Below, piece after piece: positions 3,687-23,365 of a DNA stretch of 23,365 nt (the stretch's first letter is position 1; the number at the start of each line of letters is the position of its first letter). The stretch comes from a virus. Under the pieces are notes generated by a model. The model made no database searches and had not been told where the DNA came from. It saw only the letters and a program-made list of their open reading frames with translations. The stretch lies in IMG/VR virus record IMGVR_UViG_3300042549_003873, positions 1 to 23,365 of that record; one strand, 5' to 3'. A program made the translations under genes and the position numbers.

Positions 3687-4363
3687 ATGAGATTCCTGCT
3701 GTTCAAAATACGAACATCATTCGGTATGCGGACTTCTTTCGGCTGACGACGCCAACCGGTACATATCTATTCTCCACAGCGCCTTATTCAATTATTGTTC
3801 CTGCCATTTCTGCAGCGCCATTTTCGGCTCTTGGGCAGCTAATCAAAGTCAACGCCGCGCAGCGCGACATCAAAAGCACGGCTAATGAAACTACCGTCAC
3901 CCTGGTAGGGATTGACACTTCAATGTTGGCCATTGTGCTGGCTGAGAAAATCAAAGGCTCGCAGATTGAACTTTGGCATGGGTTTTTTAATGCCAACAAT
4001 GAGTTGATTACCACCTCGCCAATTGCTTGGACAAATAATGCATCCAACGTAATTGGCTGGACAAACAGTTCATCTGTGCTGACAGATTGGACGGTGGATG
4101 CTGGAATTTCAGGGCTGTACAAATATTTCAATGGCTATGTGAATTCATTCTCGATCTCAGAAGAATGGATGGAAGAGGTTCGCGCATTCACAGGTGTCAT
4201 AACCATCAGCGCATCCAGCTTCCAGCTTATTCTGCAAAACAGAACAGCGGGACGGTACACAAACGATGCGTCCTGGCAATCATTCAATTCTGGTGATACG
4301 TCAATGAACCGGGTGAATTTCATTTCCACCATCAATTACACATTTGGCAAGACGGCAGCATGA
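3683..4363 (+). CDS. Probable tail/baseplate-hub-like protein (226 aa, GTG start)
   Basis: A 226-residue protein starting with GTG at 3683, which overlaps the preceding TGA (GTGA); the nearby ATG at 3687 is out of frame, so GTG decides the start. It contains I-E-L-W-H-G-F-F at about residues 95-102, a central Y-F-N-G-Y-V-N-S-F segment, and a C-terminal N-R-T-A-G-R-Y-T-N-D-x-S-W followed by D-T-S-M-N-R-V. That last pattern resembles phage tail hub or DUF2163-like proteins encoded just upstream of tail-tip genes. It overlaps the next gene by ATGA. The tail assignment rests on these remembered patterns plus gene order; the exact place in the tail is inference. Confidence 0.75.
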   Translation: MNEIPAVQNTNIIRYADFFRLTTPTGTYLFSTAPYSIIVPAISAAPFSALGQLIKVNAAQRDIKSTANETTVTLVGIDTSMLAIVLAEKIKGSQIELWHGFFNANNELITTSPIAWTNNASNVIGWTNSSSVLTDWTVDAGISGLYKYFNGYVNSFSISEEWMEEVRAFTGVITISASSFQLILQNRTAGRYTNDASWQSFNSGDTSMNRVNFISTINYTFGKTAA

Positions 4364-4812
4364 GGCCCACAATCCGAGATGCCAACCCGTTTGACATCCC
4401 GGCAATCCTGGGGATGCTGCGGCAGTACCGCGCATTTGCGCCGCTGGAATTCCTGCAAGAAGTGGATGACGAAATCTACATCACGCAGGTGTTGACTGAA
4501 ATAATGGCAGGTCGCGGGATTGCCCTAGTTGCGGAAACCGATAAAATTGATGGAATGCTGCTCGCGGCTATTTCCCCAAGTGCCTGGAGTCCCAAGCATC
4601 TGGTGATGATGGAAATGGCCTACTGGATCAACGTAGAGGCCCGTGGCGGCTCTGCAGCGCACAGGTTGATAGCAGCCTACGTTGAACACGGAAACGCGCT
4701 TAAATCGCAAAAACGCATCTCGGCCTTCTTCATCAGCAAAATGGTGAACAGCCCAGACTTGAAATATGACAAGTTTGGTTTTAAGAAACTAGAAGATTTT
4801 TGGGTGATCTAA
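4360..4812 (+). CDS. GNAT-like acetyltransferase in the tail gene block (150 aa)
   Basis: A 150-residue protein with the features of the GNAT N-acetyltransferase fold. The N-terminus (TIRDANPFDIPAILGMLRQY) is typical of the first strand and helices. A central strand (MMEMAYWINVEARGGSAAHR, from about residue 85) leads into an R-G-G-S-A-A segment at the position of the acetyl-CoA pyrophosphate-binding loop. The C-terminus Y-D-K-F-G-F-K-K-L-E matches the usual terminal Y-x-K-x-G-F-x-x-x-E pattern. The loop deviates from the canonical Q/R-x-x-G-x-G/A, so activity is uncertain. It overlaps the upstream tail gene by ATGA and ends one base before the tail-tip gene. Acetyltransferase-like genes at this spot recur in other phages; the substrate is unknown. 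Confidence 0.8.
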   Translation: MRPTIRDANPFDIPAILGMLRQYRAFAPLEFLQEVDDEIYITQVLTEIMAGRGIALVAETDKIDGMLLAAISPSAWSPKHLVMMEMAYWINVEARGGSAAHRLIAAYVEHGNALKSQKRISAFFISKMVNSPDLKYDKFGFKKLEDFWVI

Positions 4813-4813
4813 G

Positions 4814-7800
4814 ATGCCAAGTTCAATAATTCTGGCGGCGGTGTTTGGCGATGTGGTCATGGCTGCTGCTGCGCTTGGCGCAACGGGAATGGCAGTTGCA
4901 TCGTTCGCCATCAACATCGTGGCGTCCATGATTGTCAGCAAAGCATTTGCACCCAACGTGGACAATGCTGCGATCAATGCTGCCAGCGCAAACCCAGGCA
5001 ATCGTCAGCAATTGCCACCGGCTGGCGAAAACAAATTGCCGGTGCTGTACGGCTCGGGCTACATCGGCGGCATGGTGACTGACCTAAGTATCACCACCAA
5101 CAATCAAATTCTTTACTATGTGCTGTCGCTGGCAGAAGTCACCAACACCGAAACTGGCGGAATACCGGACACATACACTTTCGGAAATGTTTATTTCGGC
5201 GGCAAGAAATGTGTTTTTGATGGAACGGATTTGACCAAAGTTATTGGGTTGCTGGACGAATCCACCGGTTTGACTGACACCACCGTTTCGGGCAATTTGT
5301 TCTTTTATCTTTATCGGAATGGTTCATCGTCTGGAGTAAACACCGCGCAGACTGCAATTGCCGTTATGCAAGACATCGATTGCGTCTATCAATGGGACGC
5401 CAACAAAACGATGACTAACTGCGCGTTCGCCATCATGAAGATGGTGTACAACCAAGACGCCAACTTGACTGGCATTCAGCAAACCAAATTCCAACTCACC
5501 AACAGCCGCACCAAGCCAGGGGATTGCTTTACCGATTATTTAACCTCTACCCGATATGGCGCGGCGGTTCCGGTGGCTGGCATTGATGCCGCAACGATGA
5601 CTGCGCTGAATGTTTACAGTGATGGCGCATTCGCCTACACCAACATTTCAGGCGTGCAAACGCAAGCCAGATTCAGGTTTGATGGAACCCTGGACACCAA
5701 CCAGACCATCATGAACAATCTGCAACTCATGGCAAGCTGCTGTGATTGCTTGGTCAAGTACAACGAAATATCTGGTTTGTGGGGTGTGATTGTTCAATCG
5801 CCAGCCTATACCGTTGCAATGGCGCTGTCTGATTCCAACATTATTTCCGCGCTCCAAATCACACCAACTGATATTGCGTCCAGCTACAACATTGCAGAGG
5901 TTAAATTCCCTGATGGCACAGAGCAAGACGCATTTGCCACCGCCACATTCAACCTTGCGGTCATCAATCCGTCGCTCATGTATTCCAATGAGCCAGTCAA
6001 CAAACAGGTCATTAACCTGCCGCTGGTCAACAACAACGTGCGAGCGCAATACCTGGCAAACAGGTTTTTGAAGTCTGGTCGAGAAGATTTGAACCTGCGC
6101 TGCACCATCAATTATGTTGGCTTGCAGCTAGAAGCCGGCGATGTGGTAACTGTCACCAACGTCAATTATGGATGGACTGAGAAGCTGTTCCGCATCAATC
6201 AAGTGGTGGAGAATTTTGGCGACGATGGAACTATCAGCGCGACTTTGGCGTTGATGGAGTTCAATCCCACCGTCTACGATGACATAAGCATCACGCAGTT
6301 TGTGACTGCTCCAAACACAGGCATTGGTTCGCCATCAACATTTGATTTTGTCCCTGCGCCAACTCTTTCTAATTTATTGCCTTTCGCGGCTGTGCCATCG
6401 TTTGGTGTAGTGGTAACTGCTGCAAGCAGCGGCATTACGCAATATGCAGAGGTATATTATTCTGCTTACGCAACGCCAACAGCCGCGCAACGGATGCTGG
6501 CAGGAACGACAGCCATCAATCCTGGCGGTAATCCGTACACCCCCAGCGCAGTCATGGGAACCGTTACGTTAAACAATATTGCCAGTGGCGATTGGTATTT
6601 CTTTGTGCGGATGGTGAATGGGATTGGCAAAAGTGAATTTTCTTTAGCTTCACCTGTTTTGGTTTGGCGACCTACCACTTTTCAATATGTTGATCGATGG
6701 GTAGCGGTTGCATACGCCGACAACATTACAGGCACATCTGGATTTAATTACGTTCCTCGCAACAAAGCATTCTATGGATTGCGGAACAATACGGTGGCTA
6801 ATGGCGGCACCGATCCAACGCTGTACACATGGTATGCGTCGCCAGCCAATTTCGGCACAACAAATTATTTGTTGTATGCAAACCGATCAAACCGAAAATT
6901 TAGTTTTGACGTTGGCACTGCAGGATATGTAAACCTTGGCGGCGCATTTGTTCCAAGCCAAACTTCCGTTTATGACTCAAGCATTTGGGCCGCAACAATT
7001 GATCCAACTGGCGGCCTGCAGACCTTTATTGATTTGGACGCTCGCACGGGTCAGTCTACTTTGGTGGGATCAACAGGAAACAATTTGAATGATGGCTTCT
7101 TGTCTGTGACCAACAATACCGATGGCACAATGAAAGTCAACCTGCATAATTTTCTTAATTTTGGTTCTGGCGTTTACACTAAGAATTTTGCAGCCGCGAC
7201 TTTGACTATTGACATTTATGGGCGTGTGGTTGGGTTTACGCAAGAGGATGATTTCTTCTATACAGAAACAGTTTTCGTTGCAACAGCCGCGCAAACTACT
7301 TTCTCATTGACGCACATTGTTGGTTATATTTTGGTGTTCAGGAATGGGGTGTTGTTGAACTCTGCCGAGTACACGGAGACAAGCACCACGGTGGTCATGA
7401 CCAACGCTTGCGCGGCTGGGGAAACAATTGTGACTATCTACATGCGAGCAGTAAGCACCAGCGCATATTATGAGCCGCTGAACATCACGATTGCATCCAA
7501 CACTAGCAACTCCATCACCTATAGCAGCGCACCCTGGACTGACATTACCGCTGGCGAGTTGTTGACTTTTAGCAACACAGGAACCCCTACTCAATACACG
7601 GTGTCAACAGTTAACACCACCACCAAAGTCATTACATTTACGACCACGATTGCAGGCGCAACAGCAGGCAACACGGTTTATCGGTACCGGGCGGCAGGGT
7701 CTACCTATGCACCATTCACACGGTTTGACCAGGACGTTACCGCCATTACCACTTTCTCGCCAACGACCTATGCGCTGAACAATGGTTTTGAAATGATCTA

Positions 7801-13311: not shown

Positions 13312-13517
13312 GTGTTTCCCCTTGCTCTGATGGCGTCGGCAAGTACGTCAGGGTGGCTTGCATCCCATTGCTCGCACACCTTCGCGCATTCTTCTCGCTC
13401 ACGCTCGGCAACAAGATTGGCAAAGCGGTGAAGGTCGCTTTCTTCAAAGTAGGTAAGCCCCTCATCGTACGCAGCCCCAGCCTCCCGCGCCAGCTTGATG
13501 ATGTCGTCTTTGGTCAT
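13308..13517 (-). CDS. Small helical early phage protein (69 aa)
   Basis: A 69-residue protein starting ATG 13517 (MTKDDIIKLAREAGAAYDEG), overlapping the alanine-rich gene's stop as ATGA. The frame stays open upstream to 13808, but only because it runs through the 12-bp repeat, which is free of stops; the Cys/Gly-rich sequence there is an artefact. The product has a leading helix, an acidic middle (YFEESDLHRFANLV) and E-R-E-R-E-E-C-A-K-V-C-E, a motif frequent in small phage early proteins. Function unknown. Confidence 0.75.
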   Translation of the reverse strand: MTKDDIIKLAREAGAAYDEGLTYFEESDLHRFANLVAEREREECAKVCEQWDASHPDVLADAIRARGNT

Positions 13518-14149
13518 AGCGCCCCCTTGCACATCAGGATAAACAGATTGGCTTGTGCATCCCTCGCAGCATCCCTCGCAGCATCCCTCGCAGCATCCCT
13601 CGCAGCATCCCCCGCAGCCCACGCAGCAGCAGCAGCCCACGCAACATCCCTCGCAGCATCCCACGCAGCAACCCTCGCAGCAACCCCCGCAGCAACCCTC
13701 GCAGCAACCCTCGCAGCAACCCTCGCAGCAGCCCACGCAGCAACCCTCGCAGCAGCCCACGCAGCATCCCTCGCAGCATCCCTCGCAGCAACCCTCGCAG
13801 CAGCCCACGCAGCATCCCTCGCAGCAACCCTCGCAGCAACCAACTCTGTTTGCGTAGCCAGTCCATTAGCAAATCGCTCTGCCACATCCAGCGCATCGAG
13901 GCTACGTTTGTCAGTCATCAGGTGCTGCACACGCCGAGCGCAGGCAATCGCAAATAAGCACATCTCGCGCTCATGCCCATCAACTGCACGTAGGCACCAC
14001 AGTGCATCAGAAAGACCATTGCTTTCGAGGATGGTAGTCAGCGCCAGCGGTTCGTCATCAGCCTCGGTCTTGCCCAAGTTTTTCAACAGCTTTTTCCAGC
14101 CGTTGCTACACGGGCTGTGTGCCCTAATTTTGTTTAGTGTGGTTTTCAT
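13514..14149 (-). CDS. Alanine-rich tandem-repeat phage protein (211 aa)
   Basis: A 211-residue protein. Start ATG 14149 overlaps the upstream TGA; an upstream ATG at 14227 is less likely. Residues 1-100 form a helical globular domain (W-K-K-L-L-K-N-L-G-K-T-E-A-D-D-E-P-L-A-L, then L-W-C-L-R-A-V-D-G-H-E-R-E). Residues about 102-198 are tandem four-residue units of the type A-A-R-D, A-A-W-A and A-A-R-V, predicting a long alternating helix, with a short unique tail (NLFILMCKGAL). Proteins with this N-terminal domain and variable A-A-x-D-A-A repeat occur in many phages and their function is unknown to me. The repeat DNA has a 12-bp period, so copy number can vary without frameshift. Confidence 0.8.
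   Translation of the reverse strand: MKTTLNKIRAHSPCSNGWKKLLKNLGKTEADDEPLALTTILESNGLSDALWCLRAVDGHEREMCLFAIACARRVQHLMTDKRSLDALDVAERFANGLATQTELVAARVAARDAAWAAARVAARDAARDAAWAAARVAAWAAARVAARVAARVAAGVAARVAAWDAARDVAWAAAAAWAAGDAARDAARDAARDAARDAQANLFILMCKGAL
13558..13841. repeat. 12-bp tandem repeat (about 23 units) inside the alanine-rich gene
   Basis: Degenerate tandem units of CATCCCTCGCAG, CAACCCTCGCAG and CCCACGCAGCAG types run from 13558 to 13841. Because the period is a multiple of three and the unit lacks stop codons on either strand, several overlapping frames stay open here and give spurious ORFs of up to 270 codons. The unit encodes four residues of the minus-strand alanine-rich protein. 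Confidence 0.9.
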
Positions 14150-14277
14150 AGCAGATACCCAATGAAAAATCCGAACGCTGCTGCCGAGATGGCGATGATG
14201 AGCAGTACGATGGCGAACTCCAGCCACGGGTGCATGTACAGGTCTTCGATCTCGTCGTCTTGGTTGTGGTCAGTCAT
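14146..14277 (-). CDS. Single-pass membrane micro-protein (43 aa)
   Basis: A 43-codon ORF starting ATG 14277 with a strong AGGAG ribosome-binding site; its ATG overlaps the upstream TGA and its TGA overlaps the next ATG. The N-terminus is hydrophilic and acidic (MTDHNQDDEIEDLYMHP) and is followed by a hydrophobic helix (FAIVLLIIAISAAAFGFFIG), so it should be an inner-membrane protein. No family recognised. Confidence 0.75.
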   Translation of the reverse strand: MTDHNQDDEIEDLYMHPWLEFAIVLLIIAISAAAFGFFIGYLL

Positions 14278-14758: not shown

Positions 14759-14838
14759 CTAAATTTCCAAAACCAAACAATCACTGTAGCCACATACACC
14801 ACGGCCAGGACAAGCCGAAATGGTGATATGGTCTTCAT
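14755..14838 (-). CDS. Single-pass membrane micro-protein (27 aa)
   Basis: A 27-codon ORF starting ATG 14838, overlapping the stop of the ribbon-helix-helix gene (ATGA) and overlapping the next start in the same way. Its sequence is basic at the N-terminus and then hydrophobic (LVLAVVYVATVIVWFW) ending K-F-R, a typical single membrane helix. Upstream AAGGACTG can serve as ribosome-binding site. Small size makes the call less sure, but both joints are exact. Confidence 0.62.
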   Translation of the reverse strand: MKTISPFRLVLAVVYVATVIVWFWKFR

Positions 14839-14993
14839 TTTTTCAGTCCTTGTTTTATGTAAAGCAAGGCCTGGCCAGACACCGTGCGGGTGTTGGCTTC
14901 GGCCTGCCGCCTGAGTTCTTCCATGACCGACAAGGGCAACCTGATGGTCATGAAATGCTCTTTGATTTCCTTATTCTTCGGTTGGGGTTTCAT
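14835..14993 (-). CDS. Ribbon-helix-helix (Arc/MetJ-type) DNA-binding protein (52 aa)
   Basis: A 52-residue protein with the pattern of a ribbon-helix-helix DNA-binding domain: a strand (residues about 14-20, F-M-T-I-R-L-P), helix A (VMEELRRQAEANTRT) and helix B (SGQALLYIKQGLKK). Such proteins dimerise and use the strand to read DNA, acting as repressors or partition adaptors. Start ATG 14993 is favoured over ATG 14999 for ribosome-binding-site spacing (TGGA). It overlaps the preceding gene by 23 bases. It is the only clear DNA-binding regulator in the window, so it is a candidate for binding the palindrome at 20308 or repeats at the right end; that pairing is speculation. Confidence 0.78.
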   Translation of the reverse strand: MKPQPKNKEIKEHFMTIRLPLSVMEELRRQAEANTRTVSGQALLYIKQGLKK

Positions 14994-20334: not shown

Positions 20335-20363
20335 CAGCTTTTCAACAAAAACATTGGAAAAAG

Positions 20364-22376
20364 ATGGCCAATCTCTCAAACATCCTTGGCGGTTCATGGT
20401 CGCCACCACCCGAAAAACAGGTCGATGCGCCTGACATTCAACTCAAGGATGCCATCCTTGGCGCGGGGCTTAAGCCACCCGACATCATCCTGCTGGACGG
20501 CAAGTTGCACCGGTTTGCTAGTGGCACAAAGGGCGAAAAGGGCCACGATAAGCCAGGGTGGTACATAGCGTTTGGTGATGGCGTCCCAGCAGGCCGATTT
20601 GGGTGTTGGCGTTCTGGAATTGAATTGACTTGGCAGGCAGAGATTGGGCGAAATCTGACGGTTGCTGAAGAAATGTCACAGACCCGCCGTTTTTCGGAAG
20701 CCAAGATTCAGCGAGATGCGGAGCAGAAGAAGTCTAGAGAGGTTGCTGCTAATATTGTGGATTTGATTTGGTCGAGTTGCGTTGGCGCAAGCCCAGAGCA
20801 TCCCTACCTCAAGCGCAAGGGCATCAAACCCAACGGTGCCAGGGTCACAGGCGATGGCCGGCTGGTAGTGCCACTGTACGATGAGGACGGCACCCTGGCC
20901 ACCCTGCAATACATCGATGGGGAGGGCGGCAAGCTTTATCACCCTGGCGGTGCCACTGGCGGTAAATTCAACATTTTAGGCTCACTGGATGAGCCTGGCA
21001 TAGTGTATGTGGCCGAGGGCTTTGCCACTGCGGCGACCATCCATGAAAGCACCGGCAGGCCATGTGTGGTGGCTTACAGCGCGTCCAACCTTGTGCCGGT
21101 GGTTGAGGTTTTGCACAAATTCCATCCCGATATGATGGTGGTTGCCGATCACGATGCATCTGGCGTTGGTCAGAAATATGCAGAACAAGCCAGTGCGCGG
21201 TATGGGGTCAAAATGGTTATCCCGCCCATCATGGGTGATGCAAATGATTACGTCCAGGCCGGCAATGACTTGGCGGTGTTATTAGCCCCACAGCTTCCTT
21301 CGTACAAACTGAACAAGGCCAAAGTCCTGGCCTCCCAGCCGGCACCCATCAAGTGGCTCATCAAGGGCTGGATTCAGGAGAATGCTTTGGTCATGGTGCA
21401 TGGCCCAAGCGGCGGGGGTAAGACCTTTGTGGTGCTTGACTGGTTGATGCGCTTGGCCGCGCAGAAGACCGATTGGCTTGGGCATAAGGTCAAGACTGGC
21501 AATGTGGTGTATCTGGCCGGCGAGGGCCATCACGGCTTGCGAAGTCGGATTGCCGGGTGGATGCACAAGAACGAAGCCGATGATCCTGACATGTGGGTAT
21601 CCGAGGCCGGCTGCGATTTAAACACACCCGAGGGCTACAGGAAAGTTTGCGAAGCCATTCGGGCGTTGGGCGTGATTCCAAATGTGATTGCCGTCGATAC
21701 CCTGCACCGGTTCATGGCCGGCGATGAGAACAGCGCCCAGGACGCCAAGACCATGCTGGACGCCTGCGCTGCACTGATGAAGGAATTCGGTTGCACAGTC
21801 ATCTTGGTGCATCACACAGGCGTGTCTGATGAGGCCCAACACCGGGCGCGGGGCAGTTCCGCATGGCGTGGTGCCTTGGACATTGAGATCAGTATTGTCC
21901 CAAGCAAGGATGATGCCCCAATGGAAATTATTCAGCGAAAGAGTAAAGACGCTGAAATAGTTACTCCAATTTATGCGAGATTGGTTAGCTTTCCGATACC
22001 AAATTGGTTTGATGAAGATGGCGAGCCAGTTACGACTGCTTTAGTTGAACAAGCCGAGGTATTTGAGAAAGAAGAAAAGACTAAAAAAGAGTCAAAGATA
22101 TCTGTACATCAAAAGACATTTGAAAATGCTTGGTGGTCATCACAATGCGAGGTGCGTAATGGCTCTCCATATGTAAGCAGATCGGCATTGCAAAATAAAT
22201 TGCTTACAGATGGTCGAAAAGAACGCACCGTTGAGAATGATTTGAACCCCTCATATCCTGATAAATTGATTGGAGCCTTGCTGATGGGGTGCGCCATTGA
22301 GGTGTTTGAGCATGGCTGGATCGTGGTTGATTCCGTCCAGGCTGGGGCCATGATGATGGACAAAAACAAGCGATAG
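20364..22376 (+). CDS. TOPRIM primase - RepA-like helicase fusion (670 aa)
   Basis: A 670-residue replication protein. The N-terminal part (residues 1-150) has the W-Y-I-A-F-G-D-G-V-P-A-G-R-F-G-C-W-R pattern of phage/plasmid primases. A TOPRIM domain follows with V-A-E-G-F (E218) and A-D-H-D (D262, D264). The C-terminal ATPase has Walker A G-P-S-G-G-G-K-T (347-354), V-Y-L-A-G-E-G (382-388), Walker B-like V-I-A-V-D-T (441-446) and V-H-H-T-G (482-486), matching RepA/AAA_25-type hexameric helicases. The last 120 residues are more variable. Start ATG 20364 is preferred; the earlier in-frame ATG at 20211 lies inside the opposite-strand ATPase gene. Divergent to the early operon; an iteron-rich region follows, consistent with origin-proximal replication initiation. 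Confidence 0.9.
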   Translation: MANLSNILGGSWSPPPEKQVDAPDIQLKDAILGAGLKPPDIILLDGKLHRFASGTKGEKGHDKPGWYIAFGDGVPAGRFGCWRSGIELTWQAEIGRNLTVAEEMSQTRRFSEAKIQRDAEQKKSREVAANIVDLIWSSCVGASPEHPYLKRKGIKPNGARVTGDGRLVVPLYDEDGTLATLQYIDGEGGKLYHPGGATGGKFNILGSLDEPGIVYVAEGFATAATIHESTGRPCVVAYSASNLVPVVEVLHKFHPDMMVVADHDASGVGQKYAEQASARYGVKMVIPPIMGDANDYVQAGNDLAVLLAPQLPSYKLNKAKVLASQPAPIKWLIKGWIQENALVMVHGPSGGGKTFVVLDWLMRLAAQKTDWLGHKVKTGNVVYLAGEGHHGLRSRIAGWMHKNEADDPDMWVSEAGCDLNTPEGYRKVCEAIRALGVIPNVIAVDTLHRFMAGDENSAQDAKTMLDACAALMKEFGCTVILVHHTGVSDEAQHRARGSSAWRGALDIEISIVPSKDDAPMEIIQRKSKDAEIVTPIYARLVSFPIPNWFDEDGEPVTTALVEQAEVFEKEEKTKKESKISVHQKTFENAWWSSQCEVRNGSPYVSRSALQNKLLTDGRKERTVENDLNPSYPDKLIGALLMGCAIEVFEHGWIVVDSVQAGAMMMDKNKR

Positions 22377-22406
22377 GGTTCCACCCTAAGCACCCTGAGG
22401 GTGATT

Positions 22407-22464
22407 TAGGGTGATTAGGGTGATTGGGGGGCAAAGCATCATTTTTAGCACCCTAATCACCCTA
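22407..22464. repeat. 16-bp perfect inverted repeat in the iteron region
   Basis: TAGGGTGATTAGGGTG at 22407-22422 is matched exactly in reverse complement by 22449-22464, with a 26-base loop between the arms. Each arm holds two iteron units. A T-rich segment (ATTTTTAG) precedes the right arm. It could form a cruciform or hairpin, or bind a protein as two pairs of sites. Confidence 0.85.
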
Positions 22465-22501
22465 GTACCGTACCCCCTCTCTATACGGAGGGGTAGGGTA
22501 C
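22465..22501. repeat. Imperfect inverted repeat, GTACCGTACCCC / GGGGTAGGGTAC
   Basis: The arms at 22465-22476 and 22490-22501 match at 11 of 12 positions around a 13-base loop, immediately to the right of the 16-bp inverted repeat. A transcription terminator is unlikely because no T-run follows. Confidence 0.75.
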
Positions 22502-22568
22502 TTAGGGTGAGGGTGATAAATGTGATGCAGGACGCTAGGGTGAAAATATTTTTGAGAATTTGGGGGCA

Positions 22569-22865
22569 ATGATGAGAACATATTTTGGGCTGGTGCCAAA
22601 TTTGGACGATGGATGGAAACAGATCGACAAATATGTGGATCACGATGGAATCGAATGGCTGGTGTTTCGACGACCCCAGGAACACACGCCTGACTGGAGT
22701 ACCTACAAAGTGGTGTCAAATGGTAGGGCTGCAAACAAGGCAAATTACTGGATGGTGCGTAATGATAAAACAGGGCAAATTGGTTTTATCAGAGATTACG
22801 CTTCTATGCGTCAAAACAGGCCGAAATTGCATGAGAAAATTGAAAAGATTTTTAGCTTGTTGTAA
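22569..22865 (+). CDS. Orphan hypothetical protein (98 aa)
   Basis: A 98-residue ORF starting at the tandem ATGs at 22569 and 22572, preceded by a G-rich stretch (GGGGGCA) that may act as ribosome-binding site. The product begins M-M-R-T-Y-F-G-L-V-P-N and has an Asp-, Trp- and Lys-rich body (D-D-G-W-K-Q-I-D-K-Y-V-D-H-D-G-I-E-W-L-V-F-R-R-P), a middle Y-W-M-V-R-N-D-K-T-G-Q-I-G-F segment and a basic helical C-terminus (RPKLHEKIEKIFSLL). It is probably a small alpha-beta protein; no signal peptide, membrane segment or known motif is visible. It sits alone between the iteron region and the repeat end. Confidence 0.65.
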   Translation: MMRTYFGLVPNLDDGWKQIDKYVDHDGIEWLVFRRPQEHTPDWSTYKVVSNGRAANKANYWMVRNDKTGQIGFIRDYASMRQNRPKLHEKIEKIFSLL

Positions 22866-23085
22866 TCACAATTTAGATAATGTAATTACAAGCAAAAAGA
22901 TAAAAAATTGTTCAATAATTTTTGTGATATTTTGATTGCAAAATAAAATAATAATTATTTGTTTTTTTTCGGCAAAAAATTAAAAATGACTGACCAATTT
23001 TTTTTTCAAATTGAAAAAAATTAAGGCATTTTTTTTTTTTTGAAAGCCGACGTAAGGGTTTAGGAGTTTTTTTGGCCCTATTCAC
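22866..23085. other. AT-rich homopolymer-rich noncoding region
   Basis: No ORF with coding character is seen here. The stretch is strongly AT-rich with several runs: eight T at about 22963, nine T at about 23000, and thirteen T near 23029. It also has a weak AT-only stem at 22903-22909/22917-22923. AT-rich segments next to iterons can act as DNA unwinding elements; this is inference. Confidence 0.6.
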
Positions 23086-23134
23086 ACAATTGTCACTAAA
23101 AATACGTCAAATTGTCATTGAATTGTCACAATTC
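23086..23134. promoter_or_regulatory. Three phased AATTGTCA sites, two of them palindromic
   Basis: AATTGTCA occurs at 23088, 23110 and 23121, spaced 22 and 11 bases, close to two and one helical turns. The first is in the perfect palindrome ACAATTGT (23086-23093), and the third in the 15-base palindrome GAATTGTCACAATTC (23120-23134, central C). This looks like a protein-binding cluster. Confidence 0.6.
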
Positions 23135-23149
23135 ACGCTTTTTGGGCGG

Positions 23150-23189
23150 AAAATGCTCAAAATTTAAGCAAAATGCTCAAAATTTAAGC
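23150..23189. repeat. Tandem duplication of a 20-bp unit
   Basis: AAAATGCTCAAAATTTAAGC occurs twice back to back (23150-23169 and 23170-23189) without change, directly before the 11-bp array. The unit contains a near-palindrome GCTCAAAATTTAAGC. Confidence 0.92.
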
Positions 23190-23365
23190 ATCGCCCTGGC
23201 ATCGCCCAGACATCGCTCAGGCATCGCTCAGGCATCGCCCTGGCATCGCCCTGGCATCGCCCTGGCATCGCTCAGGCATCGCCCAGACATCGCCCTGGCA
23301 TCGCCCAGACATCGCTCAGGCATCGCTCAGGCATCGCCCTGGCATCGCCCTGGCATCGCCCTGGC
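23189..23365. repeat. 11-bp tandem repeat array, 16 units plus a partial, with higher-order structure
   Basis: The array consists of three unit types: A = CATCGCCCTGG, B = CATCGCCCAGA, C = CATCGCTCAGG. The order is A B C C A A A C B A B C C A A A and then the first base of a further unit at 23365, so the array continues beyond the window. A seven-unit block (ABCCAAA, 77 bp) recurs exactly after 99 bases. The period is not a multiple of three, and no ribosome-binding site or start is seen before it, so a noncoding role is likely. Confidence 0.93.

Follow-up and report, generated by a model that had tools for sequence, protein, structure and literature searches.

An 11-bp array at a contig end, the likely start of a fast-evolving satellite in a predicted HK97-like cos phage

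Why does a phage contig break off within a GC-rich tandem array, and what might such an array do? The DNA analyzed here, the window, is one virus record, 23,365 bases long. It begins within a reading frame left open at the edge and finishes within the array, which gives either edge the look of an assembly end. The array (23189..23365, + strand) consists of 16 full 11-bp units and one further base and is truncated by the contig end. Three unit types, A, B and C (CATCGCCCTGG, CATCGCCCAGA and CATCGCTCAGG), variable at columns 7, 9 and 11 only, follow one another in the order ABCCAAACBABCCAAA; in the register used below for the relatives, the unit is CCWGGCATCGC with variants. TRF reports a period of 11 with 16.2 copies, and a pattern scan yields 16 forward matches, none in reverse and none with a reversed-pattern control. 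The earlier note on this DNA had described this unit order and a 77-bp block recurring at 99-bp spacing, and both are borne out: at lag 99, 78 of 78 bases are identical, a period seen once (two copies) in a run that stops solely at the contig end. Shuffling the unit order 20,000 times gave a repeated word of at least seven units in 26 cases; the order thus exceeds chance, which favors block duplication rather than simple slippage, as had been proposed. The suggested spacing of about one unit per helical turn likewise agrees with the step of 11 bp here and 10-11 bp in relatives. A de Bruijn assembler with k=77 would stop one base past a 77-bp exact repeat. The window contig ends exactly there, so that the assembly probably broke at this edge, which alone does not mark a genome end.

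With a GC content of 0.68, compared with 0.25 in the AT-rich stretch that precedes it, the array stands out sharply from its surroundings. All three forward frames are open, the units being devoid of stops, and all three reverse frames contain stops. The array is nevertheless, judged from its sequence, noncoding, because 10- and 11-bp units alternate in relatives and break the frame: the earlier note had named a clear coding frame in relatives as grounds for abandoning its interpretation, and the mixture of both unit lengths in the related records G001 and G026 speaks against such a frame. Folded as DNA, the + strand of the array is less stable than its shuffles (z +4.3), and a single-strand hairpin was rejected on these grounds; folded as RNA, the - strand does better than shuffles (z -3.3). 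An Rfam scan gave no matches at gathering scores, positions 23031-23365 found no match among phages and plasmids in a BLAST search that masks simple repeats, and two consecutive window units had no match in viral_contigs, a search from which near-identical records were possibly omitted; in genome_contigs, there was one short match in each of four stretches. The window also holds another, 12-bp x 23 array (13557-13838), which is coding and in frame within an Ala-rich 237-aa ORF (13514-14227, minus strand) that matches phrog_18326, a family of unknown function.

The primase-helicase gene of the window (20361..22376, + strand; Toprim_3 and AAA_25) was used to find relatives and led to, among others, G001 (97% protein identity; a 36,059-base record) and L010 (82% over the 500 aa compared); G014, with a primase at 64%, was found via TerL, and the primase of G028 (the same locus as L320) is at 52%. 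All four contigs stop inside a GC-rich array of 10-11-bp units at the syntenic place (that of L010 was recognized by eye, TRF at score 50 making no call). After the primase gene, G001 and L010 show iterons, a small ORF, AT-rich DNA with T-tracts, AAAGCCGACGTAAGGG, the array and the contig stop, in this order, and G014 and G028 have the same layout with a different small ORF. The units are CCAGGCACRGC and CCAGGCACGC in G001, CCAGGCACCGC in G014, TCCAGGCGCG-like and more variable in L010, and CCTGGGCRCA and similar, with the core inverted, in G028; this inversion led us to discard Chi-like polar sites as a candidate. What these phages share with the window is therefore an array at the syntenic place and not, as the earlier note had thought possible, the same 11-mers: the unit sequences differ between phages, with a CCWGG-like core common to all. 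Higher-order periods occur elsewhere too: G026 has periods of 40 bp and 32 bp, and G028 has one of 51 bp. Multi-unit block repeats are accordingly common in such arrays. Turnover of the region is fast: the window and G001 align by blastn at 92% over 8 kb, and the adjacent intergenic DNA aligns over 42 bp only. Among the records compared, six have an array or a CAGGC cluster and five are array-less; in none of them did TRF call a period 10-11 array of more than 40 bp outside this region.

Next to the array, two features deserve mention. An anchor (23029..23058, + strand) consists of a T-tract followed by GAAAGCCGACGTAAGGG; nine T plus AAAGCCGACGTAAGGG are invariant in six phages (the window, G001, L010, G014, G028 and G013), with unconserved flanks, and the array lies ~70-180 bp past this point in the related contigs. 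The anchor thus also occurs in G013, a phage without this primase, and CCGACGTAAGGG was absent from the DNA examined downstream of 79 other primase relatives. Directly 5' of the array lies a 20-bp direct repeat (AAAATGCTCAAAATTTAAGC; 23150..23190, + strand; TRF 100% match, 2.0 copies) with A-rich runs about every 10 bp, a spacing assessed by eye; the equivalent place in G001 is occupied by a 10-bp TTGCCAAATT x8.2 array.

The position of this region relative to the genome ends can be read from contig ends near the terminase genes. From 179 loci of TerL relatives, 80 were kept, and 72 of these have a contig edge 5' of TerL: 47 carry the left-end motif and 25, by the expression used, do not. Among the 47 motif-bearing loci, 27 have their first base at the left cos end or a few bases from it (some being near-identical pairs), 7 start further inside and 13 cross the junction. 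Crossing contigs read ...GAACTAAAA - 18 nt - GGGAG CAGGCGCGGG GTCAATTTCGG; the G013 record, which runs end to end, stops at GGGAG, where the crossing contigs continue with CAGGCGCGGG. From these contig ends we infer unique genome ends with a short GC-rich 3' overhang, probably of 10 nt as in HK97, for which the accessible text of PMC9410871 gives 10 nt or 12 nt, depending on the passage. A scan with the cos pattern returned 49 stretches, some of them with other spacing and chance-like, and the fixed cos layout gave 39 distinct sequences, or 42 with three contig ends added. In G001, an HNH gene adjoins HK97-type TerS-TerL genes; TerL is similar to PDB chain 6z6d_A (E 7.5e-30), and TerS had no match in the PDB by sequence. 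Judged by TerL, the nearest cultured phage was P19250A, at 59% identity. The phage group is accordingly predicted to be HK97-like and cos-packaged. The HNH gene itself is found on either side of cos, and thus at the right or the left genome end, in these relatives (L206, L210, L092 and L115 versus L034 and L083). The far end of the G001 record starts just before HNH-TerS-TerL, so that this contig spans the genome from the left cos end to the array.

How far the array lies from cos is seen directly in G026, the sole array-bearing record that runs across the junction. Its array comprises 30 units over 323 bp (-496..-174 from the end of the cos pattern), ends ~170 bp before cosN and is followed, after cos, by HNH, TerS and TerL in this order; a second array (40 bp x 10.9, each period made of four 10-bp units) follows the iterons and AT-rich DNA of this phage. 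Contigs of the window's own clade all stop short of cos, and an array near cos in this clade is suggested by the left end of G001 together with G026. The packaging or terminal site listed as a candidate in the earlier note is partly borne out: G026, G001 and the syntenic contig stops place the array on the genome-end side, but it does not appear to be the primary TerS site, as discussed below. Repeats of period 10-11 (TRF, at least 2.7 copies) lie within 250 bp of cos in 4 of the 39 crossing sequences, namely, G026 and, with shorter repeats, L150, L058 and L068; in G013, what comes after the anchor is a CAGGC cluster without phasing, ~1.5 kb from cos. Taken together, these data are best explained if the array is the visible start of a satellite that evolves fast and occupies the right-hand intergenic DNA of an HK97-like cos phage. 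Such a right-end array would account for the contigs of this phage clade stopping there.

A fainter periodicity was detected in crossing sequences at large, in a region picked after the G026 array had been seen, with a lag preset by the array and with partly related sequences. At 120-260 bp before cosN, lag 11 is the highest of 22 lags in 33 sequences without G026 (mean z 1.51), and it tops 21 lags in a set of 22 sequences obtained by stricter removal of kin and evaluated with dinucleotide shuffles (mean z 1.77). When L068 and L115 are left out, the mean is 1.39 and the median 1.43, with 6 of 20 sequences above 1.64, in a set that retains other short repeats such as a 16-bp one in L153. At 300-440 bp, lag 11 is again on top (mean 0.64-0.67, median 1.05-1.23), and further away it stays between -0.15 and 0.33. 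A first version, in which lags 10 and 11 were pooled, gave 1.58 and 1.39 near cos and a mean of 1.05 at 320-420, with three single values above 3 at 720-820.

On the other side of the junction, TGnTAnnnT occurs within 75 nt after the left-end motif in 29 of 29 contigs (the 27 above plus L042 and L044, which cross the junction or start slightly inside; largely related and not independent events), compared with 2 of 174 intervals further inside the same contigs. A first count had given 25 of 25, against a mean of 1.8 and a maximum of 5 in letter shuffles. We read this motif as a putative extended -10 promoter element of the late operon; being located at the left end, it would mean that closure of cos places the right genome end upstream of that operon. 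A GGAATTCC palindrome, possibly an operator, lies near the extended -10 in 15 of the 29 left ends (for example, L054, L061, L065 and L104).

The reading that we tentatively place first is that of a protein-binding element, in phase with the helix, that acts across cos when the ends are joined. In circular or concatemeric DNA, cosN and the HNH-TerS-TerL late operon would lie downstream of the array, and each 10-11-bp unit would present its CCWGG-like core on about the same face of the helix. Because the units share this face, the most likely ligand, bound cooperatively, would be a DNA-bending or activator protein, presumably one encoded by the host or widely shared among phages. With the protein bound, the array would make up a phased nucleoprotein segment working in cis over the closed cos, chiefly to control the late promoter from upstream and possibly also to aid cos cleavage. 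Both the binding and the function are conjectured here from the arrangement of the DNA. In favor of such an element are the conservation of place, period and core within the window's clade, the proximity of the G026 array to cos, the lag-11 signal before cosN and the TGnTAnnnT motif at all 29 left ends. Against it, period 10-11 repeats are not general in the crossing sequences (4 of 39), the CAGGC cluster of G013 is distant from cos and unphased, the core is inverted in G028, the distance from the G026 array down to the promoter is large for an ordinary activator, and near-same units occur far from terminase genes in L018 and L024 (see below). If the element is functional, a regulatory region of the phage would be split across the two genome ends, and closure of cos would be read as a signal. 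A broader version, which we consider rather unlikely, holds that cos-junction satellites are a class of phage cis-elements, that a phased right-end array comes to control the late operon from upstream only on closure of cos, so that end-joining itself builds the control region, and that phages lacking a visible array still retain a faint 11-bp phasing near cos.

Nearly as likely as the phased element is a neutral or selfish minisatellite, in which slippage and unequal recombination expand GC-rich repeats in a rare long noncoding gap. This would fit unit sequences and higher-order periods that differ in each phage, the lack of an array in most relatives examined, including five array-less genomes, and the presence in the window of the coding 12-bp array. 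It would also fit the lack of an annotated gene partner: among the frames listed, no annotated gene is specific to array-bearing phages, and in the six-frame ORFs of G026, the candidates are just four short frames (49-95 aa) that recur in G001, G014 and G028, have no counterpart in the five array-less genomes and look like antisense frames, so that an array-specific phage gene was rejected. Place, the 10-11-bp step and core are, however, kept in five phages despite turnover of the flanks, and the 11-bp periodicity before cosN extends to phages without clear arrays; both speak against a neutral repeat.

Similar arrays in other phages bear on the same question. Four CATCGC at 11-bp steps occur in eight stretches of viral_contigs, seven with an 11-bp TRF array at or near the match, and these eight stretches gave no match to 12 proteins of the window's group except for a helicase in L020. 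In L018 and L024, CATCGCTCAAT x26 adjoins a nucleotide-sugar epimerase gene, with no terminase gene among the genes scanned, and such near-same units away from terminase genes slightly shift the balance from the element to the minisatellite. In L025, CATCGCTCAGC x12.5 (4337-4474), one letter from window unit C, ends a 4,474-base contig, 1.6 kb 5' of a TerL-like gene. Triplets of CCAGGC spaced by 10-11 bp are present in 92 stretches. A 9-12-bp unit reaches 5.5 or more copies at 32 loci, G026 and G014 not among them; with duplicates merged and G028 dropped, these were sorted by eye into 27 groups. With chosen ORFs scanned in 25 of the 27 groups, a TerS or TerL match lies within 1.5 kb in 10 (L266, L286, L325, L284, L326, L293, L309, L312, L336 and L340), the array overlapping an open frame in 5 of these 10 and the TerS match of L326 being weak, compared with 2 of 9 distinct control loci with one short match (10 with a mirror pair); with Fisher p 0.69, we claim no enrichment. 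The 11-bp CCAGGCAGCAT units of L326 (3365-3630) and L288 are one of the three unit types of G026, and in this different phage the array directly follows the weak TerS match (phrog_1482, E 1e-4). L284 has a G026-like order: a contig-edge array (5908-6125) lies 128 bp 5' of an HNH/endonuclease VII gene, followed by TerL. We found no report of such an array near cos in a literature search that covered few subscription journals; the accessible text of PMC10448857 contains the wording 'upstream of the terminase' and 'tandem repeats'.

Replication-initiator iterons beside an AT-rich unwinding element appear improbable; the earlier note had listed a replication-initiator array among its candidates and would have taken conservation next to the primase as a sign of origin function. 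Iterons next to AT-rich DNA are the classical layout of an origin, and the stretch from the small ORF to the array (22866..23188) is indeed AT-rich, with T-tracts directly 5' of the array (GC 0.25 overall, 0.17 in the first 180 bp). However, no such array was found past the primase gene in the DNA examined from 79 further relatives, of which 58 extend 1 kb or more beyond that gene, and G013 has the anchor and the CAGGC cluster without such a primase. Moreover, a separate iteron cluster, the probable replication origin (AGGGTGATT and AATCACCCT; 22377..22535), directly follows the primase gene in the window, and equivalents with other words were recognized by eye in L010, CGphi29, 1N2-2, L206, L210, G028 and G026, the last with ACGATACAA x4.3 by TRF. 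The primase was accordingly discarded as the partner of the array. The post-primase words vary by phage (AGGGTGATT, AGGGTAGTT, GGTACA, TTGACCC, CGTAACG and ACGATACAA, mostly by eye); this looks like an origin in which recognition word and primase gene vary together. Between the iterons and the AT-rich stretch lies the small ORF (22560..22865, + strand, 101 aa), with a 75% relative in G001 and no Pfam or PHROG match; CGphi29 has a similar ORF by eye, and no such array was noticed there. L206 (the same as G031) and L210 run through primase, iterons, small ORF and HNH (supported by tblastn in both and by PHROGs in L206) to the right cos end with no array, G031 being array-less over its whole record. 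Another primase relative, L248, has three DnaA-box-like repeats at 11 bp.

Still less probable is a primary, cosB-like recognition site for the small terminase. Closeness to cos and to the terminase genes in G026 and the similar arrays 5' of terminase genes in L284, L325 and L025 would agree with it. The G026 array, however, is on the right-end side, and in the accessible text of PMC11331095, the minimal site of HK97 TerS spans 15 bp (+15..+29), lies on the left-end side and has an A-tract, and the DNA threads through the TerS ring; on this basis, wrapping of TerS around a phased array was also rejected. In the present phages, a conserved AAAGTCAG at ~+20..+27 on that same left-end side fits the role of the TerS site instead of the array. 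Furthermore, G001, G026, L045 and the array-less G031 have a conserved TerS whose ends are near-identical.

Very unlikely is the centromere-like partition site bound by the ribbon-helix-helix (RHH) protein of the window (14835-14993) that the earlier note had put forward as speculative; it would resemble ParR/parC or StbA systems. RHH proteins of ParR systems bind 10-11-bp iterons, and the RHH gene is present in G001, G014 and G028. Its distribution, six of 21 records, does not follow the array, though: the gene was not found in the array-bearing G026 or in G013, is present in the array-less G031, and occurs in G033 and G030, whose DNA past the primase gene showed no array over the 5,000 and 954 bp examined, respectively, so that this protein was rejected as the partner. 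Neither a ParA-type ATPase, whose absence the earlier note had already remarked upon, nor a tyrosine integrase was found in any of 6 records, and a StbA_N search (ParM/StbA) was one in which no control matched. An assembly artefact, with the 99-bp round as a graph loop, is hardly credible: the contig end one base after the 77-bp repeat would suit it, but the array ends of three relatives carry terminal repeats of 23, 12 and 46 bp only, and the 30-unit array of G026 is resolved inside the record.

Among known systems, the ParR-parC centromeres of plasmids consist of direct repeats of 10-11 bp, one per helical turn. The step of the present array is alike, but no ParA was found here and the RHH gene does not track the array across phages. 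Plasmid and phage iteron origins have direct repeats beside AT-rich DNA, which are found here as well, except that it is the separate iterons and not the array that follow the primase. The 42-bp coding repeats of corynephage CL31, as presented in the accessible part of PMC8002715, resemble the array in their tandem units and change of copy number; the window array differs in being apparently noncoding, in its units of 10-11 bp and in its recurrence at the same place in several relatives. The closest parallel is HK97 cos, as described in the accessible parts of PMC11331095 and PMC9410871, with the likely 10-nt 3' overhang, the HNH gene beside the terminase genes, a TerL similar to 6z6d_A and a TerS-like motif on the left-end side at an equal distance. 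A phased tandem array is unmentioned for HK97 in these parts, whereas here a satellite lies on the right-end side; if functional, it would add a right-end element to the HK97 type of cos, which is now a structural model.
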